Assembly (NCBI GenBank): GCA_018698975.1
Contig: JABIPQ010000122.1
Coordinates: 1-44,914 of the forward strand
DNA length: 44,914 nt
Source: Gammaproteobacteria bacterium
GTDB lineage: Bacteria > Pseudomonadota > Gammaproteobacteria > Pseudomonadales > Pseudohongiellaceae
Reading direction: 5' to 3'
The notes beneath the pieces were generated by a model. The model had not been told where the DNA came from and ran no database searches. It worked only from the letters and a program-made list of their open reading frames with translations. Below, piece by piece: positions 25,521 to 44,914 of this stretch (position 1 is the first letter of the stretch; each line of letters opens with the position of its first letter). The translations under genes and the position numbers were made by a program.

Positions 25521-25545
25521 TTGTTTCTCCTGAATCTTGCAGTGC

Positions 25546-25587
25546 TTACAACTCTTACAACACTTGGTATGACATTTGGTATAACAC
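25546..25587. repeat. Compound 9 bp and 12 bp tandem repeats upstream of the DUF1552 gene
   Basis: TTACAACTC and TTACAACAC (25546-25563) are followed directly by TTGGTATGACAT and TTGGTATAACAC (25564-25587). They lie in the 206 bp gap between the DUF1592 stop and the DUF1552 start. Confidence 0.65.
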
Positions 25588-25726
25588 TTGCTGTTTTCTG
25601 CGATCTGCACCACTTCCTGCAGCTCGAAGGATACAGCAAAGTAAAAATAGTTCTTTTTTGCCTACACCACTTGCCCAAAACACTATGTTATGGCTTAACT
25701 GTGGAGTAACTATGACCTGATTTTTC

Positions 25727-28081: not shown

Positions 28082-29630
28082 ATTTTATTCCAGCCTTATC
28101 CATCAACTCTTTCAGCAGAGCAATGGTTTCCGGTTTTTGTTCTGCGCCTACCGCAGCGAGAAATACCCCTTCAGCCCAGCGTAGAGCTGTGCGACCCACT
28201 GCATCTTCCACATCCAGTTTCGCGCCTTGTGAGGCAAGATAACGGATGATGTCATTTGACCCTCTATTGGCAGCTCCCAGTAAGGGCGTCAAGCCCATTG
28301 AGTTTGCCGCATTAACATCTGCACCCAGAGCAATATTTATTTTTACGGCTTCCAGTAAAGCTTCATCAGACACTGTATAGGTCTGGGCAACTGTCCAGTT
28401 CATTCCGGCCGCAGCCATCAATGCAGTGGTCCCTTCATAAGTAGTGATATGCGGATCTGCCCCATACTCAAGCAGCATTTCCATCACCGGAATGTCGCCT
28501 GCCAATGAGGCTCTGATAAATGGCGTTTGCCCAGTGACATCCACCCAGGCTACATCATTGAGTGAATACAGCCATTTTTTCTCTGGTGGCCATTCCTTGG
28601 TTCTGGCATTTACATCAGCACCTTCATCCAAAAGTCGTTTGATCATCGGCAGGATGGGTTCCCTGTCTACCTCGTTGTCCTGGGGATCATCTTCCAGATC
28701 ACTGTTCATATCCAGGTTGCGGTAGTCCACAGCAGCAAACAGGGGTGTGCGACCATAAAAATCATCGACGTTTATCCGGGCACCAAAATCCAGCAGTATC
28801 TCTGCTACCCCTAATTGATTATTAAGCAGAGCCATTAATAGAGGGGATATTTCATTGGCTTCCGCCATTTCCAGGTCGGCACCGTTTTCAACGAGCAACC
28901 TGGCAGCTTCCACATGACCATCTCTTGCTGCATACAACAATGGTGTCATGCCGCCTTTGGCATCATAACGTTCACCACGATGGGGAACGCCGCTACGATT
29001 GATACCAACACCTTCAGAACCACAACCTGTTCCTTTGCAAGGAGGGATATAAGCCGGTACAGGTCCCACCCGGGTGCTGGCATCGACTTTGGCCCCATGT
29101 CTTATCAACATATCGATAACCTCTGTATGTCCTTCACGCACACCGATCATAAGAGCAGTTTGTTGAAAGTCAGGATCCCGATAATCAACCAGCGCACCGT
29201 TGGCCAGTAACAAACTCACCACTTCGGGTTTACCCGTGTGAACAGCAGTCATCAATATCGTTTCACCATTTTCTGACAAGGTGTTCGGATCAGCACCGGC
29301 CAACAGCAGGCGTGCAACAATTTTTTCACTGCCATTTTGTACCGCGAGAAATAGAGGCGTAATGCCATTTCGATTTGGCGCCAGGGGATCGGCACCGGCT
29401 TCCATCAAGAGCGCAACAGATTCCTGCTGATCCCTAAGCACAGCCCAATGCAGCGCTGTGCTGCCATCATTCAGGCGACTATTCACATCAATGCCATCTT
29501 TCAGCAAATCACTGACTTCTTTGACCAGGCCCATTTCGGCTGAACGCGCCAGCTCCTGATTGGCACTCAAGGTAAGCGGTAGCATGCAAGTCAGAATTGA
29601 GAGCATGACGATGCTTGATATTTTCTTCAT
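28071..29630 (-). CDS. Secreted ankyrin-repeat protein
   Basis: The 519-residue product starts with a Sec signal peptide (KKISSIVMLSILTCMLPLTLSA) and is then almost entirely ankyrin repeats, roughly ten. Examples are DGSTALHWAVLRDQQESVALLM and NGITPLFLAVQNGSEKIVARLL. A non-repeat linker (about residues 190-225) carries two cysteines (PPCKGTGCGSEG). Ankyrins bind proteins, so it may be a scaffold or inhibitor in the periplasm. It is the first gene of the cluster and overlaps the haem protein gene. Its later repeats resemble the two ankyrin proteins at the right end of the window. The ATG at 29630 is preferred over one 13 codons upstream because it begins the signal peptide. Confidence 0.9.
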   Translation of the reverse strand: MKKISSIVMLSILTCMLPLTLSANQELARSAEMGLVKEVSDLLKDGIDVNSRLNDGSTALHWAVLRDQQESVALLMEAGADPLAPNRNGITPLFLAVQNGSEKIVARLLLAGADPNTLSENGETILMTAVHTGKPEVVSLLLANGALVDYRDPDFQQTALMIGVREGHTEVIDMLIRHGAKVDASTRVGPVPAYIPPCKGTGCGSEGVGINRSGVPHRGERYDAKGGMTPLLYAARDGHVEAARLLVENGADLEMAEANEISPLLMALLNNQLGVAEILLDFGARINVDDFYGRTPLFAAVDYRNLDMNSDLEDDPQDNEVDREPILPMIKRLLDEGADVNARTKEWPPEKKWLYSLNDVAWVDVTGQTPFIRASLAGDIPVMEMLLEYGADPHITTYEGTTALMAAAGMNWTVAQTYTVSDEALLEAVKINIALGADVNAANSMGLTPLLGAANRGSNDIIRYLASQGAKLDVEDAVGRTALRWAEGVFLAAVGAEQKPETIALLKELMDKAGIKYAQ

Positions 29631-29657
29631 AAAGTTTGCCAAATTTTCCCACCGGAA

Positions 29658-29683
29658 AAGCAGTTGCAATCCAGCAACTGCTT
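29658..29683 (-). promoter_or_regulatory. Hairpin upstream of the ankyrin-DUF1592 cluster
   Basis: AAGCAGTTGC and GCAACTGCTT form a perfect 10 bp stem with a 6 nt loop. On the minus strand it ends in TTTTCC, a short T-run, 28 bp before the ankyrin start. It could be an attenuator or a translation-control structure. Confidence 0.5.
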
Positions 29684-30855: not shown

Positions 30856-32697
30856 CTATTCCGGTGCCAACTCAAAGGCAAATAAGGCATTGCCTGGTCG
30901 GCCCACAATGCAGCAATTGCCTGACAGGAAATACACCATGCCATCCACGATCACTGCTCCAGATGCATCAAAGGATCCTCCCTGGGCAGGCACACCATTG
31001 ATCGTTTCAAATTGAGCATTACTGTTAAAGGTCCACAACACATCTCCGTCTTCGGCACTATAAACCCGCATACCACCGTCCGCTGAACCAGAAAACACTG
31101 CGCCAGGGATTGCCGTCACCGCTGCTGACTGAGTGGCTCTGCAGCCGCGACCTGGTGCACACAACAAATCCTGAGCAGGGGCGACCCACACTCCTTGTCC
31201 GCTGGCCAGATCAATGGAATGAAGACCACCTGATTCCGGGTTGCCATAGCCGCCAACACCGACATAGGCGAGTCCATCGGCCACTGACATTCCCCACCAA
31301 CCGCCAGAGGCACTGCCTGGAGCAACGTAGTACTGCCACACCAGTTCACCGTTATTATTCGGATCAAGTGCATGAGCCATGCCGGACTTTTGGGGAATGA
31401 TCAGCAACTCTCTACCGTCATCCGTGGACGTGAGTATGGGCGAAGCAGAAAAATCCACATCCGGGCCAAGTTCCAGCGGGCAATTGGGGTTATCAATGAC
31501 ATTGCCATTATTACTGTTGTTACAACCGCCAATAAAGGCATCGTTGGGTGTCGTTTGATTCACCCAGACGATAGCGCCGCTGTCCAGATCCATGGCAAGC
31601 ACGGCATCGGAGGTTGCCGGGGCAGGTTCGCCATAGGCATTGCCGGTAGCGGTATAAAGAAGACCTCTATCAGGATCTATGGTGGGTGCATTCCAGATGC
31701 CGACACCGGACGGGCCGTATAGCTGCACACCAGTGTTACTCAAGCCGCGCGGCTCGGGCTTATCAATTGTGTAGGTTTTCCAGACTATCTCCCCGGTACT
31801 GGCATTCACCTTGGTCATGCTGCCACGGAAAGTACAGCAGGGGTAATCCGGCCCGGAGGAATTGGTCTCCTCAACAACGCCTGCAGAAGGGACATAAAGA
31901 TAGCCTTCAAACAGGGTGACAGAACCGGTACCGCGCACACCCGGATGATTTTCCACCCGCGAGACCCACAACTCTTCCCCGTTTTGTGCATTCACCGCAT
32001 AAACATTACCCCGCAGATCCTGAAAATAAACGGCATAACCATCACCACCGCCGGGCAGGTTTATTGGACCAACAGACAGAGCACTGCGCACACCGTTTCG
32101 TGGGAGATAAGTCCAGTAGCTACAACCACTTGAGGCATCGAGGGAATAAATGGCGCCCGCCTTGTTGCCAACAAAGAGACGGCCAGACACCACTGCTGGT
32201 TGTGCTCGCGGTTGGTCTTCTCCCGGCAAACCAAATACCCATTTCAGCCGCAGCCTGTCGATATTTTCAGCGCTAAGGCCAGCATCCAGTGCTGCCCTGG
32301 CATTTCGGTGATCACTGCCCCAGCCATTCCAGGAAGGACTTAAAACAGGATTACCCATCTGTGGATTCTGTGTACAGAGATTGCTGGTCATTTCCAGTCC
32401 CAGGGGAACCATCGGCTGGCCGGTGAGATATTCAGATACTGACTGCATCTGGGCATTAGTGAGCCCTGATGCCTGAATGCGCATAACGCCCTGAGTAAGC
32501 GCCCGATATAGCGCATCAGTAGTCAGCGACTCAAGGACGGAACGGGCAGGAGGTGGACGATCCAAAGTGGTAACAGGAGTTTCATGGCAAGCGGCACAGC
32601 GGGCGGCATAGATTTCACTGCCATCCTGAGCTTGAGCCTGAAGAACAGGGAAAAGCAAAGCCCAGGCTACACACAAATAAAAACAGATTTTCTTCAT
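30856..32697 (-). CDS. Cytochrome c / PQQ-type beta-propeller protein
   Basis: The 613-residue protein has a signal peptide (about 1-23), a small cytochrome-c domain with CAACH at 34-38, and an eight-bladed propeller of the quinoprotein type. Propeller blades include LFVGNKAGAIYSLDASSG, VYAVNAQNGEELW and MRVYSAEDGDVLWTF. The layout matches the polyvinyl-alcohol-dehydrogenase-like family, in which an alcohol is oxidised by PQQ and electrons pass to the fused haem. Whether PQQ binds here cannot be decided by eye. Cysteines are frequent (CCTF, CNNSNN, NCCIV) and could form disulfides. A GGGGGGAAGAG ribosome binding site precedes the ATG. Confidence 0.85.
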   Translation of the reverse strand: MKKICFYLCVAWALLFPVLQAQAQDGSEIYAARCAACHETPVTTLDRPPPARSVLESLTTDALYRALTQGVMRIQASGLTNAQMQSVSEYLTGQPMVPLGLEMTSNLCTQNPQMGNPVLSPSWNGWGSDHRNARAALDAGLSAENIDRLRLKWVFGLPGEDQPRAQPAVVSGRLFVGNKAGAIYSLDASSGCSYWTYLPRNGVRSALSVGPINLPGGGDGYAVYFQDLRGNVYAVNAQNGEELWVSRVENHPGVRGTGSVTLFEGYLYVPSAGVVEETNSSGPDYPCCTFRGSMTKVNASTGEIVWKTYTIDKPEPRGLSNTGVQLYGPSGVGIWNAPTIDPDRGLLYTATGNAYGEPAPATSDAVLAMDLDSGAIVWVNQTTPNDAFIGGCNNSNNGNVIDNPNCPLELGPDVDFSASPILTSTDDGRELLIIPQKSGMAHALDPNNNGELVWQYYVAPGSASGGWWGMSVADGLAYVGVGGYGNPESGGLHSIDLASGQGVWVAPAQDLLCAPGRGCRATQSAAVTAIPGAVFSGSADGGMRVYSAEDGDVLWTFNSNAQFETINGVPAQGGSFDASGAVIVDGMVYFLSGNCCIVGRPGNALFAFELAPE

Positions 32698-32881: not shown

Positions 32882-33289
32882 ATGAAAAACTTGATCACCA
32901 TTCTCGCAGGTGCCGTATTACTGGCAGCCACTTCTGCTGCCGCACTTGCTCACCATTCTTTTGCCATGTTCGACCAGACTACAAAGGTGGAATTCACCGG
33001 TTATGTCTCTGAAGTTCAGTGGACCAATCCACACGTCTGGATCATGGTTGATGTGCCTCAGGATGACGGCACTGCTATAAGCTGGGGAGTTGAATTTACC
33101 AGCAAGGTACACCTGACCCGTCGCGGATTTTCCCCTGACTTGTTCAACATTGGTGACGAAGTCACTTTTTCTGTAAGCCCCTACGCCGATGGCAGTCCGG
33201 GTGGTCGTTACTTTTGGGTGCAACTGGCTGACGGCACCTATGCCTGCGATGTTGGTGCAGCACAGCGCATCTGCCAGGAAAGAAATTAA
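32882..33289 (+). CDS. DUF6152 family secreted protein
   Basis: The 135-residue product has a signal peptide ending ALA, so the mature protein should begin HHSFAMFD. The rest is one small beta domain with GYVSEVQWTNPHVWIMVDV and the RRGFSPDLFNIGDEVTF segment, typical of the DUF6152 family, whose function is unknown. AGGGGA lies 7 nt before the ATG. The next gene, 59 bp downstream, encodes a protein of the family that is fused to the DUF6152 domain at 39038-40177. The two proteins therefore probably act together. Confidence 0.85.
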   Translation: MKNLITILAGAVLLAATSAAALAHHSFAMFDQTTKVEFTGYVSEVQWTNPHVWIMVDVPQDDGTAISWGVEFTSKVHLTRRGFSPDLFNIGDEVTFSVSPYADGSPGGRYFWVQLADGTYACDVGAAQRICQERN

Positions 33290-33348
33290 ATCCCTTATAA
33301 ACAACCTTAGATAAAGCAATCATTCAAATAATTAGCTGGAACATAATT

Positions 33349-34128
33349 ATGAAATCCCCATATTTACTCTGCTCATTATTCGCTGCCAGTATATTTGGCA
33401 CTACCATCGCTATGGCTCAGGACGATGTAGTTTATCCAGCCAATGCAGAAAATGTCAGTTATGCTGAACTCGATGAGCTGCCGGACTTTCGCGGACTCTG
33501 GTTCCCTGCCTTCAGGCAGGTTGGCGGTGATGAGCCGGTACTGATCGGCGCAGCCAAGGAAAGCTGGGAAATGCATGAGGCCAGACTGGCAGCTGATTCA
33601 AATTATGAAGTCCCGGAAACCTCGAACAACTGTGAACCCGATGGCTTTCCCTACATCATGAACTTCCCCTACAGCCTGGAATTTCTTTTCACGCCTGGCA
33701 AAATTACTGTGATTCAGGAAGCCCTGATGCAGGTACGACGTATTTTTACCGATGGTCGTCCCATGCCTTCGCGTGAAGATCTCGATCCCAATTACTTCGG
33801 TTATTCCCGCGGCCATTGGGAAGGCGATACGCTTGTTGTCACAACCATCGGCACCCAGCCAGGACAGCGACTGGGTCGTGCCGGAATCAAAAATAGTGAC
33901 CAGCTGACTACCACCGAGCGCATCTACCTTGACCCGGAAAATCCTGATCAGTTGCACCTGGACTTCACCTTTGAAGATCCAGAAGTTTTGGCACAACCCT
34001 GGCATATGACCCACACCTTCAGTCGTGACCGTACCTGGGAACAGATTGAATATATCTGTTCACAAAACAACAGACATATCCTCGATGCTGAAGGCCAGAC
34101 TCTGCCGCCCGAAGAAATCAGAAACTAA
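33349..34128 (+). CDS. Secreted protein of the 'WEGDTLVV' family (unnamed)
   Basis: I recognise the sequence pattern but know no function. The 259-residue product has a signal peptide ending AMAQ. The mature part contains CEPDGFPYIMNFPYSLEF, RRIFTDGRPMP and SRGHWEGDTLVVTT. It ends with EYICSQNNRHIL, and the two conserved cysteines could form a disulfide. Similar secreted proteins are common in acidobacteria and some gammaproteobacteria. The same module forms the C-terminal half of the protein at 39038-40177. It is cotranscribed with the DUF6152 gene and ends at a strong terminator shared with the convergent tannase gene. Confidence 0.75.
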   Translation: MKSPYLLCSLFAASIFGTTIAMAQDDVVYPANAENVSYAELDELPDFRGLWFPAFRQVGGDEPVLIGAAKESWEMHEARLAADSNYEVPETSNNCEPDGFPYIMNFPYSLEFLFTPGKITVIQEALMQVRRIFTDGRPMPSREDLDPNYFGYSRGHWEGDTLVVTTIGTQPGQRLGRAGIKNSDQLTTTERIYLDPENPDQLHLDFTFEDPEVLAQPWHMTHTFSRDRTWEQIEYICSQNNRHILDAEGQTLPPEEIRN

Positions 34129-34157
34129 AACTTCTACTTTTTAGAAACTCACCCAAT

Positions 34158-34185
34158 AAAAAACCCGGCAAGTGCCGGGTTTTTT
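34158..34185. terminator. Bidirectional terminator
   Basis: A stem CCCGGCA/TGCCGGG with a 2 nt loop is flanked by six A and six T residues. It serves the plus-strand gene ending at 34128 and the minus-strand gene ending at 34201. Confidence 0.88.
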
Positions 34186-34200
34186 ATTCGTGGCCAAGAG

Positions 34201-35886
34201 TTATTCAACACAGCTGAAACTGTCAGCACTGTTGATGTCACCACGGCCGTTATAACGTGGCCACTCAGGGTAATGACAAACAGGACGCGTGCGTCCGGCA
34301 GTCGCCTGATTGGCATCGCTGGCTACCATTTCTTCTGGTGCCTGACCTCTTTCCACCCAGGCTTCCAGAGCATCAAGAGAAGAAACGCGGGCATTGAATA
34401 CACCAGTCACATGACCCATCCCCGGAATGGTATAAAACTTCACAAAATCTGAAAGCGTATCTTCATCATAACGCTGCTGCAGTCTTTCCCAGTACTGGAT
34501 GGATGAGTACACCGGAATAAAATCGTCCACCCGACCATGGAAGTAAATTAACTTACCGCCGTTTTCCTGGAAGCGATCAATGTTGGCACTATTGGCACTG
34601 ATCAGCTCCACCAGCTCACCAATACGCCCGGCATATTGGGCCGGGTCAAAATCATTCATGGTGTCCAGAGTCAGATCCTGGGCAATGGCATAGCGTGGAG
34701 TGGCGTCACCCGGTCCATGCTGCAGAGCTTGCTGCGGTCCTTCACGCCCCAGGTTGGTACTGCCGCCATCCATAAAGGTGGAGCCTTCAAAAGGCGTCCA
34801 CTTGGGAAAAATAGACGTAAGTTCATCATCAGCAAACACACTGAAACCAAGATCGTATGGCGTATCCATAACATTCAACGCTTCAATTTGTGCATCGGAC
34901 AAACAACGATCACTGGTGTCAGCACCATTATCACAGCGTACAGGATTATCTGAACTGCTCAGTCTAAAATCCTGAGTCGCTTCCAGACAAGCTTCGACAT
35001 TACTGATAATGCCATCTTCTGCACGGTCGAGATCGTCGCAGGCTTCATAGACAGCCGCGACATAGCTTTCAATTTTGGCAGGACTAATCCAGCTGTCACC
35101 ATTATTTGCCAGTAGCGCCCTGGCATATTGATTGGCAGACAAATGCAGCATCACTACATTATGAGCCGGGTAACCTGCCACGGCACCATGGTAATCATCC
35201 GGATAACGTTGCACTGCATCAAAGGCTTCGTGACCGCCCTGCGAACCACCAATAATATAGTTGTACTGAGAAGCCGTTCCGTAGCGAGCCTGCGTCAGAT
35301 GCATGGCCACGTCATGGGTCTTCTTGATCTGTTCGTGCCCATAATTGCGTAGCGCTTCCTCATAAAGAAAAAAGCTGCCATCAAAACCTGGCAACCGTGA
35401 CTTGTGCCCTGAGTCACTGCCCAGGGTGACATACCCGCTGGCAAGCGGTGTTGGCTCAGAAGATGGTTGCTTGGCGTAATGACCGAGGCCTGTCACTACC
35501 CTGCCATTAAAACCGCCACCACCCAACTGAAGTGACTTGCCATTCCAGTTACTGGGCAAATTCACTTCAAATTCAATATCCGGTGCGTTGTAGGTAACAG
35601 GGTGAATATTGCCCATCACCTTGCAGAACTCACCATTGGTGTTATCACGCGCATTACTGCGAATCAGTTCTGTGGAATATATAGTGGCACCGGTAGTAGA
35701 AAGACCGATCCCGGATGCCGGAATTTTCAGACCATTAAGTGCAGCACAGGCATTCGCTGCTGACATGCTGGCCAGCTTCAGCCGCCATGAAACGTCCTGG
35801 GCATGGGCACCGACGCTTGCAAATGCGCAAAGTACAGCTGACGTCAGGACACTGATTACTGTTGATGTTTTTATTGATCTTGCCAT
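34201..35886 (-). CDS. Tannase / feruloyl esterase family protein
   Basis: The 561-residue product has a signal peptide (about 1-30, ending AHA) and the alpha/beta hydrolase of the tannase family, which cleaves esters of phenolic acids. The nucleophile is Ser215 in YIIGGSQGGHEAF. The acid Asp lies in YFHGRVDDFIPVY and the His in YTIPGMGHV. The family's cysteines, next to Ser and His in the CS-D-HC motif, are Gly and Val here. The longer open frame to 36114 runs antisense through tmRNA and is rejected; the ATG at 35886 starts the signal peptide. The true substrate is unknown. Confidence 0.87.
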   Translation of the reverse strand: MARSIKTSTVISVLTSAVLCAFASVGAHAQDVSWRLKLASMSAANACAALNGLKIPASGIGLSTTGATIYSTELIRSNARDNTNGEFCKVMGNIHPVTYNAPDIEFEVNLPSNWNGKSLQLGGGGFNGRVVTGLGHYAKQPSSEPTPLASGYVTLGSDSGHKSRLPGFDGSFFLYEEALRNYGHEQIKKTHDVAMHLTQARYGTASQYNYIIGGSQGGHEAFDAVQRYPDDYHGAVAGYPAHNVVMLHLSANQYARALLANNGDSWISPAKIESYVAAVYEACDDLDRAEDGIISNVEACLEATQDFRLSSSDNPVRCDNGADTSDRCLSDAQIEALNVMDTPYDLGFSVFADDELTSIFPKWTPFEGSTFMDGGSTNLGREGPQQALQHGPGDATPRYAIAQDLTLDTMNDFDPAQYAGRIGELVELISANSANIDRFQENGGKLIYFHGRVDDFIPVYSSIQYWERLQQRYDEDTLSDFVKFYTIPGMGHVTGVFNARVSSLDALEAWVERGQAPEEMVASDANQATAGRTRPVCHYPEWPRYNGRGDINSADSFSCVE

Positions 35887-35996
35887 GTATTTCCCCTTTT
35901 CCCCGATGGTATGTAAAGCAGGCAGCAATATTCCTTTTTTTTGCCTCCGGTTGCAAATCTGGAATTTAGCCCCCATATAAAAGAAAATGGATGTGT

Positions 35997-36002
35997 TAGA
36001 AT
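35997..36002 (+). promoter_or_regulatory. Candidate -10 box of ssrA
   Basis: TAGAAT (5/6 to TATAAT) lies 12 nt before the mature 5' end of tmRNA, leaving a short leader for RNase P to remove. No good -35 box is found at 17 bp. An alternative pair TTGCAA (35951) and TATAAA (35976) has a 19 bp spacer. Confidence 0.35.
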
Positions 36003-36014
36003 GTCCTTTGTTCT

Positions 36015-36379
36015 GGGGGTGTTTTGGATTCGACGCCGGTACTAAAACCCAGGGTGCATGTCGAGAGGGTAGTAACTCTCGTAAAACAATTGCTGCAACT
36101 TTTTTAGTTGCCAACGACGATACGTACGCTCTAGCCGCTTAAAGACCTTAAGTTAGGCTAGCGATTGCCAAGGGATGCCTGTAAACCGGAAGCAATTGTC
36201 ATATAGAACAGGACCGCGCCGGAAGTGTGTTTGCCACCAAGGTGCTAAAATTTAGCAAACTCGCCCTAAACACCCTGCCGGTCGGGTCGTGATGGGCTAA
36301 CTCAATAGATTTGGCTAAGCATGTAGATCTCTCGGCAGAGGGCTGACGGACGCGGGTTCAACTCCCGCCGCCTCCACCA
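36015..36379 (+). ncRNA. ssrA: Transfer-messenger RNA (tmRNA)
   Basis: tmRNA acts as both tRNA-Ala and mRNA to rescue stalled ribosomes. The 5' GGGGGTG pairs with 3' CGCCTCC to give a 7 bp acceptor stem with one G-T and one T-G pair, followed by discriminator A and an encoded CCA. TTGGATTCGACG near the 5' end and CGGGTTCAACTCCCG (T arm) near the 3' end are diagnostic. Length is 365 nt, normal for the one-piece form. The tag frame lies at 36110-36142. A terminator follows after 9 nt. smpB is in the same window, 12.8 kb upstream. Confidence 0.97.
36110..36142 (+). other. tmRNA proteolysis-tag reading frame
   Basis: The resume codon is GCC and the frame reads ANDDTYALAA, then TAA. With the alanine carried by tmRNA the tag is A-ANDDTYALAA. 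The LAA end is the ClpXP degradation signal. The fifth position is Thr, where E. coli has ANDENYALAA. Confidence 0.93.
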
Positions 36380-36388
36380 ATAGATAAA

Positions 36389-36418
36389 GCTCACCCCCTA
36401 AGAGGGTGGGCTTTTTTA
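36389..36418 (+). terminator. Terminator after ssrA
   Basis: GCTCACCC and GGGTGGGC form an 8 bp stem with one T-G pair, followed by six T residues, 9 nt after the tmRNA 3' end. Confidence 0.85.
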
Positions 36419-36470
36419 TTGGGCAAAGATAAGGTTTTTTGCTCCAGTATGAACCGGCAGGCTATGCTGG

Positions 36471-38660
36471 TCATCGATTATAAATCCTGAAGCGCAACTC
36501 AGCTTGTGGCCCCTGTGCAATTTCTCTGGCCAGTAAAGTTCCATCCTTGGCGCCAAACTCACGCAACATCTCCCTGCTTTGAAAGCGTGGACGGGGATTG
36601 ATGGTGGCGGTTACTTCCATGTACTTTTTAAGACGCCATTGCAGCGAAATTCTGGCAGAGCTGTCGCGTCGGCTGTCGGTGGTGGCAAGAAATGAAGGGG
36701 CTAGTCCGGGTTGTCGCACAGTGGAGAAAAACTCCTCCAGGTTGCGCTCGTCACGAGGGCTTTCAATTCGGGCATTAAGTCGCAGACCCTGGAAAAATTC
36801 GTACTGAAGAAAAGCCCGCCACTGGTGAGATTGTTGCCAAACATTAGCTCCCCTGACGCTATAGTTTTTATTATTGATATTGCGCCACGTGTTCAGCTCC
36901 CAGGACCACTTGCTCTCACCTGGATTCTTTTTCAGCCCCAATGACCACCGCAATCTGGAGCCGGAAACATCACGACTTTCTCCTGTCACCGGATCAATAG
37001 TCTCCGAGTCCTGAATATTAAAGCCGGCATCAAGCACCAGGTCTTCCATATTGAAACGCGCAAAGGGATGTTCAATATTGGTATCAAACCAGGTGATCTT
37101 TTCAGCATTGGTGTTTTGCGACACGATCAGCGAATCGGAAAGTGGCACCGATCGGATAGGGTTCTCAAGGATGTAGTGGCCAAGGGTAAATTTCAGCACG
37201 CCGCGGTCGCCAAAGCGCTGGTCATAGTTGAGCGTGTGTCGCCAGTTACTTTCGGAATCCAGTCGAACAGCCCCTGCCTGGAGAATTTCAGAAGACAGAC
37301 TGGATGACGCCAGAAACTGACTCAGGCTTAGCTGGCCAATGTCGTAGCGTGATTCCCAGGTAATGGTGGTCCTGTCCCTGAACTGGTAGGCAACCGAGGT
37401 GAGGCCCTTCACCTCGGTCTGGTCATTGCTGGAAACTCCCTTTGCTTCGATAGCGTAAATCCCGCCACTGAGACTGCCGCGTAGTGTCCAGTTTTCTTTC
37501 CAGTTCCAATCAGCTTCCATGGTAAGTGAATGGCGATCTTCCTCAACACGACTATCGCTACCGGCCAGAGTTTGTAACTGCCCGTTCTCGAACAGCCGCA
37601 GATTACCTTCGAAGTAATTAAAGGCGGAAGACGCGATAGCTCGCAAGGTTAAATTGTTACTGTAATTATTGGTAAGACGCAGGCGTGCCGCTGTCTCTCC
37701 GGATTCTCGATTCCTCTTTAAGGACAGCAGATCCAGCTCATCAGAAAATGTCGATTCGTTGGTTTGAATATTTCGGGAATCAACCACCGCAAACATCAAG
37801 TCGCTACGCATGCCGAAAGTCCTTAAATACTCCGCTGAGACCTCCTGGAAATCACGATCGTTGAGAAAGGATTCGCTGATAGCCAGGACTGCCGCAGAGC
37901 CTCCCCCCACCGGGATCGGCTCAGAAATTCTTTCCTGGGTATTTAGTTCAGCATTCACCGACAGACTGCTTTCATTCTGAAAATTGAATATGGAACTAAG
38001 CTGTAGATAATTCTCACCCTGGTCGTTCTGGTTCTGGCTGGAAATTCTCTGCTCCGGGTTTGCCGGGTCGATATCGACAAAATCGGAGGGCGTCTTGGTG
38101 CTTCTATCCATCAATCCTGCGCGCAGGCTGAAATCATGCTGGCCCCAGGACAGGTTGCCGGTCAGATCCAGCTCGGTATTGCGCTCGTTGCGCTGGCGTA
38201 CATCGCCGTCCCCGCTGCGATTGAACTGGGAGCTGAGCTCAAAGTAATCCGGATCCTCATCTTCAAGAATAATGTTGGCCACCTGGGTATAACCCTGCAT
38301 ATCAATACCCAGGGTGGCACCCGTATTGATCAGATCAATTCGGGTGACGCTGGTATAGGGTCTATTGGATAGTTGTTGCCAGATTGACTGGCCTTTTGGT
38401 GGGGGACGTTTGCCGTTTATCAGGATATTTGTGCGCACCCCTGCAAGGCCGCGACCACCGGACTGCTCCTGGGGATTAAACCCTGGAGTTTGCTGCACCA
38501 TATCAAGCGCAGTGACTGGATCAAATTGCAGGTAATAGGCCGGTACAAAAACCCGAATACCCTGAGTAATTTGATTTTCGTCCGCCGATTGTGAAAAGCT
38601 GACAGACGCCAGGCTAACGGACAATACGAGAACAGCTATTTTTCCTGAAAACGAAACCAT
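36471..38660 (-). CDS. TonB-dependent-receptor-like outer membrane protein
   Basis: The 729-residue product has a signal peptide (about 1-23). A plug domain follows at about 30-155, with FDPVTALDMVQQTPGFNPQEQSGGRGLAGVRTNILINGK-type sequence (read in shorter pieces: ALDMVQQTPGF, GRGLAG, ILINGKRPP). A 22-strand-like beta barrel then runs to the end, rich in alternating aromatic residues such as NWTLRGSLSGGIYAIEA and GLRLNARIESP. It lacks the STN signalling domain. The last residue is Arg instead of the usual Phe or Trp, with aromatic Tyr two residues earlier. Substrate is unknown; it could import a product released by the neighbouring secreted enzymes. Confidence 0.78.
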   Translation of the reverse strand: MVSFSGKIAVLVLSVSLASVSFSQSADENQITQGIRVFVPAYYLQFDPVTALDMVQQTPGFNPQEQSGGRGLAGVRTNILINGKRPPPKGQSIWQQLSNRPYTSVTRIDLINTGATLGIDMQGYTQVANIILEDEDPDYFELSSQFNRSGDGDVRQRNERNTELDLTGNLSWGQHDFSLRAGLMDRSTKTPSDFVDIDPANPEQRISSQNQNDQGENYLQLSSIFNFQNESSLSVNAELNTQERISEPIPVGGGSAAVLAISESFLNDRDFQEVSAEYLRTFGMRSDLMFAVVDSRNIQTNESTFSDELDLLSLKRNRESGETAARLRLTNNYSNNLTLRAIASSAFNYFEGNLRLFENGQLQTLAGSDSRVEEDRHSLTMEADWNWKENWTLRGSLSGGIYAIEAKGVSSNDQTEVKGLTSVAYQFRDRTTITWESRYDIGQLSLSQFLASSSLSSEILQAGAVRLDSESNWRHTLNYDQRFGDRGVLKFTLGHYILENPIRSVPLSDSLIVSQNTNAEKITWFDTNIEHPFARFNMEDLVLDAGFNIQDSETIDPVTGESRDVSGSRLRWSLGLKKNPGESKWSWELNTWRNINNKNYSVRGANVWQQSHQWRAFLQYEFFQGLRLNARIESPRDERNLEEFFSTVRQPGLAPSFLATTDSRRDSSARISLQWRLKKYMEVTATINPRPRFQSREMLREFGAKDGTLLAREIAQGPQAELRFRIYNR

Positions 38661-39037
38661 GCTCTATAACACCCGAATTAGCATGAAGCCCAGACAGCAA
38701 GATAGCCGGGTTTCTTTTCTGAAATCGGTCATTGAGCCTCGATAATAACGGGCCTTTGTTAAATAATTAAGGATTTCTCCCTTTCATGACGACAAATAAG
38801 GCATGAGTAATACTTTGCTGATAAATAAGACTCAGGAGCTTGGTACGCATTATTTCCAAACAGAAGACAATGGATACCCTGCTCTATTGGCAATAATTTG
38901 CCTCTGGCATTCTTTTATTTCGCTTACCGAAAATTAGGAAAAATTGCGAATTTTTACTCAAACTCTGGCATCTTTCCTCTGCGCCTATATACTCCGCAGC
39001 AATCTACCTAAAACTACAATCATTGCAGGAAATCACC
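38661..39037. other. 377 bp divergent promoter region
   Basis: This AT-rich gap lies between the outer-membrane protein gene and the DUF6152 fusion gene. It has no credible open frame. A promoter for the rightward gene is proposed at 38965-38993. Nothing else recognisable was found, apart from short A/T runs near 38930-38960. Confidence 0.5.
38965..38993 (+). promoter_or_regulatory. Candidate promoter of the DUF6152 fusion gene
   Basis: CTGGCA (4/6 to TTGACA) and TATACT (5/6 to TATAAT) are separated by 17 bp. The predicted start near 39000 leaves a leader of about 38 nt with an AGGA ribosome binding site 7 nt before the ATG. Confidence 0.45.
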
Positions 39038-40177
39038 ATGCGATTATCAAATAAACTCCTGTGGTCGGCCGTTGCCACCACCCTTGTCAGCCTGACTGTA
39101 CCAGTGTTTGCCCACCATGGCTTTGGCCTGTTTCAGCTGGAAATCAAAAAGGAATGGTCAGGCACCCTAACCAAGATGAACCTGGTTAATCCACACTCAT
39201 ATATGGAACTTGATGCTATCGATGAAAACGGTGAGATTTTGCATATGCGCTGTGAAATGCGCGCTGGCACTTTGTTACGTCGCGCCGGCTGGGCTACCGA
39301 TATGTTCGTGGTAGGTGCACATGTTGAGATTGAAGGTAATCCGCACCGTGACGATCCTGAGGCCTGTTACATCGAAAATTTCTCAATTGATGATTCCGTT
39401 ATGATCAATCGCAACGACCAGTTCCTTAGTAATGAGCCAGTGGACACCTCGAATCGTCCCTTGCGCCTTGCCGATGGCCAGCTCAATATCAGCGGAGACT
39501 GGGCCGTTGAACAATTGGTGCTTACAGTCCCCCCGAGCGGTGGCAGAGGCTCCATGATTCCCAAGACAATGTCGCCTGATTTTGCTGCTGGCAGAATCAC
39601 CCAGGAAGATGTGCGCGCCACCCAGCCGCCAAGACCGCAAACCGTTTATACGGAAAGAGGACAGGCAGCAGCCGATGCTTTCGACAGGCGCTCTCCCATA
39701 GACAATCCCTGGTTTGCCTGCAAGCCCACCAGCTTCATCCGGGACTGGACCGCCGACTGGCCAATTAACAAATTCGAGCAAAAAACCATGGCAAACGGTG
39801 AAAAAGTCATCGACATCACCTATGGCTTGTATAACTTCAACCGTCGTATTCATATCGGCATGACAGAGCACCCCCCTGGGATCAGACCCAGCTATGCCGG
39901 CCATTCAATCGGCAATTGGGAAGGCGATACTCTGGTGGTCGATACCACTGGATTTGCGGAAGGGGTTCTGACGCCGCCGACTCGAACCAGTGAACAGTTA
40001 CATATCGTGGAACGCTTCACCCTCGATACCGAAAAAATTGCTCTCAAACGTGAGTATTCAGTGACGGATCCGGTTTATCTGGCAGCGCCCTATGAAAGTT
40101 ATGATGTTATGTTCCTTTCAGATGTGCCTTTCCAGGCGCAGGAATGCAAGGAAATGACGCCGGAATTCCAGCAGTAA
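39038..40177 (+). CDS. Secreted fusion of DUF6152 and 'WEGDTLVV' modules
   Basis: The 379-residue product has a signal peptide ending VFA, so the mature form should begin HHGFGLFQ. Residues about 25-125 align with the DUF6152 protein at 32882-33289 (NPHSYMELDA, LLRRAGWATDMF). After a linker, the C-terminal half matches the protein at 33349-34128: WFACKPTSFIRDW, the RRIH segment, SIGNWEGDTLVVDTTGF, and a final cysteine (AQECKEM). Two genes that are adjacent elsewhere in this window are thus one polypeptide here. The ATG at 39038 has AGGA upstream; an in-frame TTG five codons earlier is ignored. A terminator follows. Confidence 0.8.
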   Translation: MRLSNKLLWSAVATTLVSLTVPVFAHHGFGLFQLEIKKEWSGTLTKMNLVNPHSYMELDAIDENGEILHMRCEMRAGTLLRRAGWATDMFVVGAHVEIEGNPHRDDPEACYIENFSIDDSVMINRNDQFLSNEPVDTSNRPLRLADGQLNISGDWAVEQLVLTVPPSGGRGSMIPKTMSPDFAAGRITQEDVRATQPPRPQTVYTERGQAAADAFDRRSPIDNPWFACKPTSFIRDWTADWPINKFEQKTMANGEKVIDITYGLYNFNRRIHIGMTEHPPGIRPSYAGHSIGNWEGDTLVVDTTGFAEGVLTPPTRTSEQLHIVERFTLDTEKIALKREYSVTDPVYLAAPYESYDVMFLSDVPFQAQECKEMTPEFQQ

Positions 40178-41282: not shown

Positions 41283-43151
41283 TCAGTTGTACTCAAGCGG
41301 ATTGTAATCCGGCGAACAGACTTCAACGATACAGATAGATTCCAGCGTACGGCCTACGGGCGGCGCATCCAGACCCTGTTCAAGCATCACCTCGCGCATC
41401 AACTCTGCTGTTTCTGGATGCGGAATGGCTGACTGCACGCCAACACGCACCAGGCCATCGGCATAATCGATTGGTAACCAGGTGTGAGCTGCCAGCTCGG
41501 CACTGCCTCGGTTATCTGTATTACCGAAGTCCCGAATATCCAATCTGCCACCCGCTTCCACCAGAATTCTTGCAACCTCGGTGGCGCCTTTATGACCAGC
41601 ACCATGCAGCGCGGTACGCCCGGTATCAGCCTGAAAATTTGGGTCTATGCCAAGTTCTAAAAGTAGTTTAACGGCCTCCACTGTCTGCGCTGTGGACCAT
41701 TCACTGGTGACACCTTCAACCCAGCCAATACCTGCAGCCACAGCCAGGGGCGTAACATCCAGAGCAGTATTGATATGGGGATCAGCCCCATATTCCAGCA
41801 ACATCTTCATCAAGGGAACATCACCGGATTGCGATGCACGCAGGAAGGCTGTAGCCCCCTCCTCATCCAGCCACTGGTTGGTAAATACAGTGCGGGTCTC
41901 GGTACTTTCGGTCAAGCGTGCATTGGGCTCAGCACCGGCATCAAGCAGAATCTGGATATAGTCAAGATGATCCATGTCAGGTTCGCGGGTGGGGTAGTCA
42001 CCACCCTCGACGTTGCGATTGTCTGTAGCCAGGTAAAGGTTAGTCCAGCCACCTTTGTTGGCTATATTGGCATCAGCGCCATTGTCGATGAGAAATTTGC
42101 CCATCAGATAATTACGGTTCTGTGTTGCTGCCAGCAAGGGAGTCCAGCCATAACGTGTGGTCTGGTTTACATCAGCGCCGGCATCCAGCAGAACACGTGC
42201 TGCTTCAATCACACCGGAACGGGCAGCATAAACCAGAGATGTCAGTTCACCCGCATCCGGTTCGCGCTGAGCACGGTCACGGCCAAAACCACCAAAGTCG
42301 CCAAATTCGCCACCACTTCCGTCAGCTACCGCCGCAAAACCAAGGCCACGGCGTTCGAATGTTTCACAGACGACTTCAGTAGTCAGTTCAACACCTGAAT
42401 CAACGAGTCTTGCAAGCGCTCTATCCTGGCTACCGGAATCTATACTGCCTGCAATAGTCAGTTTTCTAAGTAAGGGCAGGTCCGGGGTTGCTTGTTCACA
42501 CAGGGAGACAATAGTCTGGCGCCTGACATTAATCCTGGGATCTTCTGAATTACCAAGTGCCGCTGTACGCCCGTCACGCATGACCGGTGCGGATGTGGCG
42601 GATACATCAGCTCCGGCCGCAATCAGTACCGCTATTACATCGGCATGTCCCTGATCTGCAGCCTGCATCAGGGCCGTAGTACCGCGCTCATCTTCACTGG
42701 CATTCGGGCCTGCGCCTGCATCCAGTAATACCTGGACAGCATCAACAACACCGGAACGTGACGCCAACATGAGAGGACGACGTCCAAGCGGTAATTCCTC
42801 GTTGGCATTCGCGCCACTATCCAGTAAAACCTTGATCATCTCTGCATCGCCATGCTTAGCTGCCAACCATAAGGGAGTAGCACCATTCCGGTTTGCCAGC
42901 GATGTATCAGCACCAACAGCTAGCAAAGCCCGGGCAATTTCCGTATCACCATGGTATGCAGCCCATTGTAAGGCTGTTGCCCCATCAGCCTGGGCAGCAT
43001 TCACATTAACACCATCCTTTATAAGGCGCTGTACAGTGGCGCTATCACGCTGCATGGCCACATCTGAGATTTCAGATTGTGCCAAGGCAAAATGGGTGCT
43101 CAACATGAGCAGTAACAATGTAACTTTTTTCAAATTTCTAATAGCTTGCAT
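41283..43151 (-). CDS. Secreted ankyrin-repeat protein, copy A
   Basis: From the ATG at 43151 the product has 622 residues, with a signal peptide ending ALAQ at about 22-25. An N-terminal set of about five ankyrin repeats (DGATALQWAAYHGDTEIARALL, NGATPLWLAAKHGDAEMIKVLL) is followed by a non-repeat linker. The linker has the RTAALGNSEDPRINVRRQ and LCEQATPDL motifs and a Gly/Phe-rich stretch. More repeats follow, and the tail has a CIVEVC cysteine pair. Other in-frame ATGs lie up to 21 codons upstream; none has a clear ribosome binding site. It is a tandem paralogue of the gene at 43271 and related to the ankyrin protein at 28071. Confidence 0.88.
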   Translation of the reverse strand: MQAIRNLKKVTLLLLMLSTHFALAQSEISDVAMQRDSATVQRLIKDGVNVNAAQADGATALQWAAYHGDTEIARALLAVGADTSLANRNGATPLWLAAKHGDAEMIKVLLDSGANANEELPLGRRPLMLASRSGVVDAVQVLLDAGAGPNASEDERGTTALMQAADQGHADVIAVLIAAGADVSATSAPVMRDGRTAALGNSEDPRINVRRQTIVSLCEQATPDLPLLRKLTIAGSIDSGSQDRALARLVDSGVELTTEVVCETFERRGLGFAAVADGSGGEFGDFGGFGRDRAQREPDAGELTSLVYAARSGVIEAARVLLDAGADVNQTTRYGWTPLLAATQNRNYLMGKFLIDNGADANIANKGGWTNLYLATDNRNVEGGDYPTREPDMDHLDYIQILLDAGAEPNARLTESTETRTVFTNQWLDEEGATAFLRASQSGDVPLMKMLLEYGADPHINTALDVTPLAVAAGIGWVEGVTSEWSTAQTVEAVKLLLELGIDPNFQADTGRTALHGAGHKGATEVARILVEAGGRLDIRDFGNTDNRGSAELAAHTWLPIDYADGLVRVGVQSAIPHPETAELMREVMLEQGLDAPPVGRTLESICIVEVCSPDYNPLEYN

Positions 43152-43225
43152 AGGTCGAATTTCCATAAGGTGCTTTGTATTCATAATTTTATTAAATGAA
43201 ATCCTGCCTCTCACTTTCTAACGTC

Positions 43226-43255
43226 AAAAAGCCCGGTGAAAACCGGGCTTTTTTT
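43226..43255. terminator. Terminator between the tandem ankyrin genes
   Basis: GCCCGGT and ACCGGGC with a GAAA loop are flanked by A and T runs. The stem is the same as in the terminator at 41237, which suggests it was copied along with the gene. Confidence 0.88.
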
Positions 43256-43270
43256 GGAGATTTAATTAAA

Positions 43271-44914
43271 TTAGTTGTACTCAAGCGGATTGTAATCCGG
43301 AGAGCAAACCTCAACGATACAGATAGATTCCAGAGTACGGCCTTCAGGTGGTGCCGCGAGGCCCTGTTCAAGCATCACCTGGCGCATCAACGCAGCTGTT
43401 TCAGGATGAGGTATGGCTGACTGCACACCGACGCGAACCAGGCCGTCAGCATAATCGATCGGCAACCAGGTATGGGCAGCCAGTTCGGCACTGCCTCGGT
43501 TATCTGTATTACCGAAGTCCCGAATATCCAGTCTGCCGCCCGCTTCCACCAGGATTCTTGCAACTTCGGTTGAGCCTTTGTGACCGGCACCATGCAGAGC
43601 AGTACGTCCGGTATCGGCCTGATAATTGGGATCAATGCCAAGTTCCAAAAGCAATTTAACGGCTTCCACAGTTTGTGCTGTGGACCATTCGCTGGTAACG
43701 CCTTCAACCCAGCCAATGCCAGCAGCCACGGCCAACGGGGTTACACCTAATTCTGTATTGATATGGGGATCGGCACCGAACTCGAGCAACAACTTCAACA
43801 AGGGCATATCACCGGATTGAGAAGCACGCAGAAAAGCTGTAGCACCATTCTCGTCCAACCATTGATTGGTAAAAACTGTTCTTGTCTCGGTACTCTCAAT
43901 CAGGCGGGCATTCACCTCAGCACCAGAATCAAGCAGCAGTCGAATATAGTCCAAATGATCCAGATCGGGTTCGCGAGTCGGATAGTCGCCACCCTCGACG
44001 TTTCGATTGTCAGTAGCCAGGTAAAGGTTAGTCCAGCCACCCTTGTTGGCAATGTTTACATCGGCACCATTTTCGATAAGAAATTTGCCCATCTGATAAT
44101 TACGATTTTGTGTCGCTGCCAGCAGTGGCGTCCAGCCGTATCGTGTGGTCTGGTTTACATCAGCGCCGGCATCCAGCAGAACCTGTGCAGACTCAATAGA
44201 ACCTGAACGGGCTGCGTATACGAGGGCGGTCAGTACGCCACCGTCAGGCTCCCGTACTGCATTGCGATCAAAGCCATTGTTTCCACCCCGCCTGCCCTGA
44301 CAAATACCAATGGAGTTCTGTTCACAACCGCAGACATTCCTGGCGCTGAAGGCGCTTTGCTCATTTTCTTCCGTATCAGATTCGGCTAGGTTGGAAAAAT
44401 TGTCTGGATCCAGGCTCGGTGTTTCTTGCTCACAGAGAATAGCAAGCACTTGTCGCCTCACTGATTCACGTGGATCTCCGGCTTTGCCCAGCGCTGCAGT
44501 ACGTCCGCCACGCAGGATAGCCTTGGAGCCTGCAGCAACATCAGCGCCGTGTTCAATCAACACTGCCATGACATCCGCATGGCCCTGATCTGCAGCTTGC
44601 ATTAATGGAGTTGTGCCTCTCTCTGTTTCACTGGCATTGGGGTCAGCACCATGATCAAGGAGTAGCTTTACAGCCTCTACGTTGCCAGAACGGGCAGCCA
44701 GCATAAGTGGTCGTCGTCCCAGTGGCAGGGATTCATTAGCATCGGCCCCACCATCGAGCAAAATATTGATCACTTCAACGTTGCCATGATTTGCTGCTAA
44801 CCACATAGCCGTAGAACCGTTGCGGTTAGATAGAGAATGATCAGCGCCGGCCGCCATTAATAATGAGGCCAGATCCGCATCGCCATAATAAGAAGCCCAA
44901 TGCAGCGCCGTGGC
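43271..44914 (-). CDS. Secreted ankyrin-repeat protein, copy B (5' end beyond window)
   Basis: The frame is open to the right edge (it reads ATALHWASYYGDADLASLL before the first internal Met), so the start and any signal peptide lie outside. The visible 547 residues follow the same plan as copy A: N-terminal repeats, a linker with RTAALGKAGDPRESVRRQ and LCEQETPSL, more repeats, and the CIVEVC tail. The part after about 44200 downwards is nearly identical to copy A. The linker differs completely and contains an extra cysteine group (NVCGCEQNSIGIC). Such a mixture of identical and divergent segments suggests tandem duplication followed by uneven divergence or gene conversion. Confidence 0.88.
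   Translation of the reverse strand, partial: ATALHWASYYGDADLASLLMAAGADHSLSNRNGSTAMWLAANHGNVEVINILLDGGADANESLPLGRRPLMLAARSGNVEAVKLLLDHGADPNASETERGTTPLMQAADQGHADVMAVLIEHGADVAAGSKAILRGGRTAALGKAGDPRESVRRQVLAILCEQETPSLDPDNFSNLAESDTEENEQSAFSARNVCGCEQNSIGICQGRRGGNNGFDRNAVREPDGGVLTALVYAARSGSIESAQVLLDAGADVNQTTRYGWTPLLAATQNRNYQMGKFLIENGADVNIANKGGWTNLYLATDNRNVEGGDYPTREPDLDHLDYIRLLLDSGAEVNARLIESTETRTVFTNQWLDENGATAFLRASQSGDMPLLKLLLEFGADPHINTELGVTPLAVAAGIGWVEGVTSEWSTAQTVEAVKLLLELGIDPNYQADTGRTALHGAGHKGSTEVARILVEAGGRLDIRDFGNTDNRGSAELAAHTWLPIDYADGLVRVGVQSAIPHPETAALMRQVMLEQGLAAPPEGRTLESICIVEVCSPDYNPLEYN

Follow-up and report, generated by a model that had tools for sequence, protein, structure and literature searches.

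The window analysed here, a stretch of 44,914 nucleotides from a gammaproteobacterium of the family Pseudohongiellaceae (assembly GCA_018698975.1, contig JABIPQ010000122.1), carries two adjacent genes and, further downstream, a third gene whose product unites both of their proteins in a single chain. The first gene encodes a member of DUF6152 (PF19649), a Pfam family of unknown function, and the second a protein with the motif WEGDTLVV; these proteins, and the corresponding domains, are referred to below as D and W. Both D sequences of the window belong to DUF6152, scoring 99.3 bits for the separate protein and 54.1 bits for the fusion against a gathering cut-off of 27 bits. No Pfam or NCBIfam family matched the second gene or the second half of the fusion at an E-value of 1. 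In pairwise BLASTP the separate D aligned with the fusion at 26% identity over 103 amino acids (aa; 4e-14) and the separate W at 41% identity over 74 aa (5e-11). The initial annotation had read the two neighbours as the two halves, in order, of the fused protein, and this reading is confirmed: the open reading frames (ORFs) are in place, Pfam and BLASTP agree, and its landmarks (His-His, Asn-Pro-His, the cysteines and WEGDTLVV) are real and family-wide in alignments of 178 D and 243 W domains. The fusion may start at 39038 (ATG), or at 39023 (TTG) as in the ORF list. Features of the three genes are collected in the table.

Table. Features of the D, W and fused genes in the window, and D-DUF6644 units elsewhere
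Feature	Position	Strand	Basis or remark
Separate D protein, 135 aa	32882..33289	+	Pfam DUF6152, 1.3e-28; oligonucleotide/oligosaccharide-binding (OB) topology in AlphaFold2 (AF2) model
His-His, predicted mature N-terminus of separate D (HHSF), after A-x-A type signal-peptidase site	32951..32956	+	sequence
Asn-Pro-His of separate D, third conserved His, mature residues 26-28	33026..33034	+	conservation; position from translation
Separate W protein, 259 aa: signal peptide, GxW, Cys, WEGDTLVV, Cys	33349..34128	+	59 bp downstream of D
WEGDTLVV in separate W	33817..33840	+	counted on translation; conserved in family
Fused D-W protein, 379 aa	39038..40177	+	Pfam DUF6152, 1.7e-14, residues 16-105; W half corresponds to separate W
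His26-His27 in fusion, predicted mature N-terminus	39113..39118	+	6 of 6 fusions of the same genome; at least 90% in 61 fusions
Asn-Pro-His (51-53) in fusion	39188..39196	+	fusion alignments
Predicted lipocalin/FABP-like (fatty-acid-binding protein) barrel of fusion, residues 141-363, GxW at 153-155	39458..40126	+	VIA-align Z 8.6-9.7
WEGDTLVV (294-301) in fusion	39917..39940	+	counted on translation; conserved among fusions
D-DUF6644 units in W-less proteobacteria	L280:5923-6783; L281:5926-6791; L282:5935-6788		

The pair in the window is one instance of a large pattern. The genome to which the window belongs (2,794,204 bases in 151 contigs) contains 73 DUF6152 matches and 87 W matches at an E-value of 0.01 or better, that is, 160 domain matches in 2.79 Mb. 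The initial annotation had proposed that adjacency of the two families be compared with chance, and in this genome they are neighbours far above it: W lies within 2 kb of 69 of the 73 D, when random placement, done ignoring contig ends, gave a mean of 9.9 and a maximum of 21 of 73 in 2000 runs. Conversely, D lies within 2 kb of 82 of the 87 W, and 67 of the 73 D have a W on the same strand within 600 bp. Twenty-three D share one frame with a W, each with D first; a twenty-fourth long D frame, on contig C80, adjoins a W in a frame of different length. The same contig holds, on the minus strand, a 532-aa single frame with two tandem W domains (G000:C80:8304-9548). 

Gene order distinguishes the separate from the fused state. 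Order and fusions were counted in the fetched stretches of the window's own genome and in 80 further loci (L061-L140), the 80 best of the 524 stretches that a search of genome contigs with the W motif had confirmed. Where D and W are same-strand neighbours less than 400 bp apart in this set (n=171), the median gap is 13 bp. Separate pairs occur equally in the orders D-W and W-D (54 each); fusions are D-W in 80 cases and W-D in none, and three further frames were scored W-W. Both separate orders together with exclusively D-first fusions are what would be expected if the N-terminal histidines of D must stay free. The fused and separate labels change 11 times on a W tree of 243 rows and 15 times on a D tree of 195 rows, rough counts from trees restricted to W domains longer than 110 aa and D domains longer than 60 aa. 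In an 82-row subset, made up of the window's own W and a random choice of 40 fused and 40 separate ones (from 80 and 153, respectively, that exceed 125 aa), there were eight changes, against a mean of 27.6 under shuffled labels, and a single clade of fusions was rejected by the approximately unbiased test (p-AU 5.22e-61). If all eight changes are taken as fusions, the chance that every one would be D-first under free order is about 0.004. Distances among D also correlate with those among their W partners, with r 0.49 for 50 unambiguous pairs within the window's genome and r 0.587 for separate pairs (n=31; permutation p 0.0005 in both cases).

Outside this genome the pairing is seen again in loci titled Gammaproteobacteria, Acidobacteria/Bryobacterales, Opitutales and sphingomonad genera, all among the 80 best of 524; Terriglobia, Vicinamibacteraceae, Rhodospirillaceae and Caulobacteraceae are further titles among these 80. 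Taken together with the window, the 80 loci show W within 1 kb of 74 of 76 separate D and D within 1 kb of 96 of 120 separate W, as well as 62 D-W fusion proteins; the frequency of D-adjacency is biased upwards here, the W motif having been the means of finding the loci. One of them, L081, a D-W-W run, comes from a metagenome bin titled Bordetella parapertussis, a doubtful title for such environmental genes. Sixteen genomes chosen from the 80 loci hold from one D and two W to at least 150 of each, the latter (at least 300 domains) in a genome of 3.3 Mb that bears the title Rhodospirillaceae; 100 D and 88 W were counted in an Arenicellaceae genome of 2.6 Mb, and 24 and 59 in Novosphingobium sp. 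Rr 2-17. Among 57 relatives including the window's genome, D was found in 37, namely the 36 genomes of the window's family, without exception, and one from a different family, and W in 37, namely the same 36 and one weak match elsewhere. Some of these per-genome counts are lower bounds, part of the candidates having been scored; D numbers 45-71 in the five other genomes of the same genus, and 37-57 and 18-25 in two sister genera. When 120 genomes were drawn evenly from the phylum and scanned at an E-value of 1e-5, D was found in 10, among them the window's own, and W in one, the window's own. The amplified D/W system is thus rare but extreme. An assembly artefact as its source was considered and set aside: D and W occur in complete plasmids and in two records that carry strain titles, Alteraurantiacibacter aestuarii JCM 16339 and Novosphingobium sp. 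Rr 2-17.

Among 243 distinct W domains the first cysteine is present in all of the 212 rows that reach it and the last in all of the 218, and the WEGDTLVV columns are conserved at 76-97% each. An AF2 model of the fusion, built on an alignment of 61 fusions, is confident, with a mean predicted local distance difference test (pLDDT) of 90.3 and a predicted template modelling score (pTM) of 0.85. The latter, taken over the whole fusion, is the only structural hint of an interface between D and W. Residues 141-363 of this model form an antiparallel up-and-down barrel and matched, among the 50 matches listed, chains of NanoLuc, FABP, cellular retinoic acid-binding protein (CRABP) and cellular retinol-binding protein (CRBP) with VIA-align Z scores of 8.6-9.7, at root-mean-square deviations of 3.0-4.3 over 109-130 residues; the likeness is one of fold only, in a predicted model. 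These Z scores are for entries of Foldseek's candidate list, in which none reached an E-value of 0.001. Upstream of the W core, a strict GxW-type motif occurs in 118 of 247 W domains and in no shuffled copy, and a looser form in 165 against 35 in shuffles; the tryptophan of the motif (W155) is conserved at 90% or more in the 61 fusions. Because of the fold matches, the GxW-type motif and the two invariant cysteines, W is predicted to be a secreted lipocalin/FABP-like barrel, probably disulfide-bonded.

D carries a different kind of signature. Its His-His columns are conserved at 99% each in the 175 rows that reach them, of 178 distinct D domains (percentages rounded), and the Asn-Pro-His columns at 96, 99 and 98% of the 178; further strong columns include a glutamate (91%) and glycines. 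Of 179 distinct D-bearing frames, 169 have His-His followed by Pro-His, and in 157 of these 169 an AxA-type signal-peptidase site (A, V, S, T, L, I or G at -3; A or G at -1) immediately precedes His-His, with alanine at -1 in 149. His-His is missing at its usual place in four of the 138 D-bearing proteins of L061-L140 and the window, namely L077, which the start of its contig truncates, and the fusions L091, L098 and L137. The mature separate D, modelled by AF2 from 75 rows all trimmed to begin at His-His, gave a pLDDT of 92.0 and a pTM of 0.84, with a mean pLDDT of 86 for residues 1-10. Strands at 13-24, 29-36 and 42-48, a helix at 52-57 and strands at 70-78 and 84-91 make up a five-stranded barrel with the helix between strands 3 and 4, the arrangement of an OB fold in this predicted model, and the model aligned with the OB proteins PriB and SSB at Z up to 9.2 across 81 residues. 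Foldseek found no match in the PDB at an E-value of 0.001 or better for either the D or the fusion model, and a sequence search for solved relatives in the PDB returned nothing under E 0.6 and one match at E 0.6.

Two features of a histidine brace are present in D: a histidine at the mature N-terminus, as judged from sequence alone, and a second, internal histidine, in the conserved Pro-His, which is also invariant in an alignment of 10 rows described below. According to PMC12537917, an N-terminal histidine chelates transition metals naturally, whatever the protein structure, and families can be found by such a signature. We therefore read D, on the strength of the model, as a protein of OB fold that probably exposes His-His at its free end and also keeps a Pro-His, and its histidines as a likely transition-metal site, in which we infer that they lie close to one another.

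D has a second partner. In eight of nine W-less genomes the single-copy D is adjoined, on the same strand, by a gene for the membrane protein DUF6644 (L272-L279), the domain ends lying 80-145 bp apart. His-His and Pro-His are present in all nine of these D; eight of them (L271-L278), aligned with the window's two, form the 10 rows mentioned above, again trimmed to begin at His-His. In a survey of plasmids, in which five of 23 records were examined and three of these carried annotation, the records of Paracoccus denitrificans PD1222 and of Comamonas antarctica give DUF6152 followed by DUF6644, and a Sinorhizobium meliloti Ak57 plasmid has the same two-gene unit with the second gene labelled DUF2214. 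TonB-dependent receptors, one annotated as a siderophore receptor, lie near the Comamonas pair. DUF6644 was found in 11 of 14 chosen genomes. Twelve stretches were inspected around it, some of them chosen for a nearby D; it stands without D or W in five (L257, L258, L259, L262 and L263), and W-rich genomes contain runs of the type W-W-D-DUF6644-DUF6644 (L254, L255 and L260). The 19 aligned members share an invariant histidine, lysine and tryptophan, and 17 of the 19 matched DUF6644 (PF20349) at an E-value of 0.1 or better, the best at 1.2e-96. Weaker matches were to DUF2214 (5.7e-6) and UPF0093 (0.003). Landmarks common to DUF6644 and three CopD sequences, namely His-x8-Gly, a glycine and a lysine, can be picked out by eye and are suggestive of kinship with CopD, in which membership is not claimed; CopD was not among the seven families listed for the 19 members at E 0.1. 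A comparison of D itself with CopD found no similarity.

These distributions bear on the partnership proposed in the initial annotation, which had taken the fusion as a sign that D and W work together. Adjacency that is far above chance in the window's genome and recurs in several phyla, fusions that are not a single clade and co-divergence all support it, so that the proposal holds as a likely working partnership, but the partners are not obligate: D also pairs with DUF6644, and W is often found without D.

We propose that D and W act as one secreted unit, in which D contributes a metal site and W a ligand barrel docked to it, and that D has an older role with DUF6644; we give this scheme about an even chance. 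The signal peptide of D would be cut directly before His-His, freeing the N-terminus, and the free His-His end together with the conserved Pro-His would form a transition-metal site, for which copper is a first guess. The W barrel may take up a small organic ligand, probably hydrophobic or aromatic. D would dock W, either as a separate chain or within a D-W fusion, so that a constant metal site could serve a variable barrel. Lineages that scavenge diverse organic matter may have amplified the pair, with one copy per ligand or ligand class. In its older role, D may work with DUF6644, a small membrane protein with an invariant histidine and lysine, as CopC does with CopD. The unit might oxidise, carry or sense its ligand; we lean towards a redox reaction of the bound ligand assisted by the metal, because the metal-type site stays conserved beside diversifying barrels and the copy numbers far exceed what metal supply would need. 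The boldest form of this proposal, that D-W is a new modular metalloenzyme, with an OB-fold head, a histidine-brace-like site at its free N-terminus and interchangeable lipocalin-like barrels that each offer a different organic molecule, whose one conserved oxidising centre would have been copied up to 150-fold or more for the processing of many kinds of dissolved organics in the periplasm, we regard as unlikely.

Other explanations account for parts of the same evidence. The histidines of D might be structural, without metal chemistry, if W is a periplasmic carrier of diverse organics that D merely docks or stabilises. The barrel fold of W, paralogue numbers as extreme as in an amplified binding-protein family, and sphingomonad plasmid loci with a TonB receptor, or monooxygenases and a TonB receptor, near D/W would all suit such a carrier. 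It is harder to reconcile with three histidines kept at 98-99% in 178 divergent D, two of them exactly at the predicted cleavage site, and with their retention in the D of genomes without a W match; TonB and transporter genes, moreover, do not stand out beside D/W overall. We consider a pure carrier doubtful. Alternatively, the system may serve metal acquisition, W capturing a metal-organic complex in the manner of siderocalins, D taking the metal at its N-terminal histidine and DUF6644 passing it inward, as a functional counterpart of CopC-CopD. The D-DUF6644 pairs of W-less genomes and the W-W-D-DUF6644-DUF6644 runs point this way, as do the DUF2214 and UPF0093 matches of DUF6644, its CopD-like landmarks and the receptors near the Comamonas pair. 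Against it, amplified genomes hold 50 to at least 150 D/W and 0 to 18 DUF6644, which is odd for metal uptake, the profile similarity to CopD is weak, with no CopD match at E 0.1 among the 19 DUF6644 members, and no metal genes stand out near D/W; on balance this reading seems improbable.

It might also be that D and W have no functional link and are passengers co-amplified by tandem duplication. In some genera the two counts do change independently of each other, and co-divergence can follow from nothing more than linked duplication. It fails, however, to explain together the equal frequency of both gene orders, the strict D-first rule and fusions that are not one clade, which is why we favour a functional link; with the pairing present in several phyla as well, mere passengers are highly improbable.

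Several observations nevertheless weigh against a secreted D-W unit with a metal site and a ligand barrel. Co-divergence is lowest in fusions (r 0.377, n=19, permutation p 0.0005), the reverse of the naive expectation, and could as a whole arise from linked duplication alone. W is frequently found without D: genomes of five genera in the family have 1-3 D but 5-27 W each, and a one-contig genome (G033) has 14 W and one D. Conversely, D occurs without W in nine of the 10 D-positive genomes of the even draw, in each as a single copy, and in eight of them with a weak score of 34-50 bits. The strict GxW motif goes unrecognised in 129 of 247 W domains, and fold matches at Z 8-10 reflect a common arrangement, not function. 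In the model of the fusion precursor, residues 24-26 have a pLDDT below 50, and the three fused D without His-His indicate that the predicted site can be lost. As to the older role, a strong single-copy D in L271 adjoins neither W nor DUF6644, and comparison of DUF6644 with CopD (PF05425) by hhalign, using a three-sequence CopD alignment, was weak (P 0.0024/0.0033, probability 12%/10%, 59 columns). Nor does the gene neighbourhood point to a common partner. Pfam scans, read from the first 25 families listed for each, showed no common enzyme or transporter among 108 immediate D/W neighbours in L061-L140 and the window (of 195 immediate neighbours, 177 reached 150 aa; 122 of these were picked randomly and 108 scanned). 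Likewise, no common partner emerged from 96 near and 96 far genes of the window's genome, whose counts differ little: Lactamase_B 5 near and 2 far, PQQ (pyrroloquinoline quinone) 4 and 2, and Cytochrome_CBB3 5 near and not among the 25 families listed for the far set. That far set comprised 96 of 100 genes, four window genes being omitted for no compelling reason; 19 of the 100 lie in the window, and many of these 19 are housekeeping genes. Proteins with CxxCH are not enriched beside D/W, either in the window's genome (6 of 107 near, 6 of 115 further away) or in L061-L140 (6 of 191 and 8 of 350).

A link between cytochromes and D/W was accordingly rejected, CxxCH proteins being no commoner near than far. 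In the window itself, the separate D-W pair is flanked by genes for a tannase/feruloyl esterase (34201-36114) and for a PQQ dehydrogenase that includes a cytochrome domain (30856-32697), which reflects no general rule. A minus-strand run at 24180-29669 encodes three proteins, one with DUF1552, one with DUF1592/1588/1587/1585/1595 and one with ankyrin; the far control genes, which are partly these same window genes, again include members of the DUF1552, PSCyt3/PSD2 and ankyrin families. Two adjacent, near-alike large ankyrin-repeat proteins are encoded on the minus strand at 41283-44857, likely through recent tandem duplication. On a plasmid of Croceibacterium atlanticum (L220:5938-16533), a run of D-D-W, a TonB receptor and a MarR regulator lies between two G8-domain proteins, and CEMIP_beta-hel matches 2 of the 96 near genes in the window's genome. 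G033 (L211-L219) has W genes that lack a D neighbour, often in longer frames, one of them close to a TonB receptor (L215); its only D (L214:5809-6267) comes after a W, with genes for a small CxxCH protein and a HupE/UreJ-type protein in the vicinity.

The significance of the pair extends beyond the window, in that two families without a known function reach 160 domains in one genome and at least 300 in another. If D is a metal site and W a ligand barrel, they would represent periplasmic chemistry of soil and marine bacteria that has so far gone unread, and D would be a new scaffold for N-terminal-histidine metal sites. The presence of the D-DUF6644 pair in Paracoccus denitrificans and Sinorhizobium meliloti, which are cultured and tractable, makes the older role of D testable.

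Our literature search found no description of DUF6152, DUF6644 or the WEGDTLVV motif; the predicted His-His mature end, the predicted OB fold and the pairings with W and DUF6644 are what this analysis adds to DUF6152. Lytic polysaccharide monooxygenases (LPMO) and CopC have folds that differ from the OB fold. Among N-terminal-histidine proteins, PMC12537917 describes the classes DUF4198, DUF6702, Ang-1 and Ang-2; DUF6152 is not one of these four, and PF19649 is absent from the main text of that paper. Like these classes, LPMO and CopC, D is predicted to be secreted with a histidine at its mature N-terminus and a further conserved histidine. It differs in its predicted OB fold, DUF6702 and the anglerases being beta-sandwiches and DUF4198 having another fold (PMC12537917). 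Unlike these proteins, D, whose metal site is a prediction, is paired or fused with a barrel and occurs in tens to over a hundred copies. CopC and CopD are a partnered copper system. The D-DUF6644 layout resembles theirs, with a predicted periplasmic N-terminal-histidine protein beside a small membrane protein with His-x8-Gly and lysine, and departs from it in the predicted fold of the soluble partner and in the weak profile similarity of DUF6644 to CopD. The GxW motif is a landmark of lipocalins. W shares with calycins (lipocalin, FABP, CRABP and NanoLuc) the predicted barrel arrangement, to which the GxW-type motif before the core of many members may add a further likeness, and is set apart from them by its conserved cysteine pair, its WEGDTLVV strand, an Asp-Pro and the lack of a Pfam match. 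The Bug proteins of Bordetella have a fold different from those of D and W. They form, according to PMC11452294, a family of many secreted proteins in a single genome that bind small molecules, most of them without an assignment. D and W are likewise a large, predicted secreted family within single genomes, with small-molecule binding predicted for W, but here two families have been amplified as a pair.

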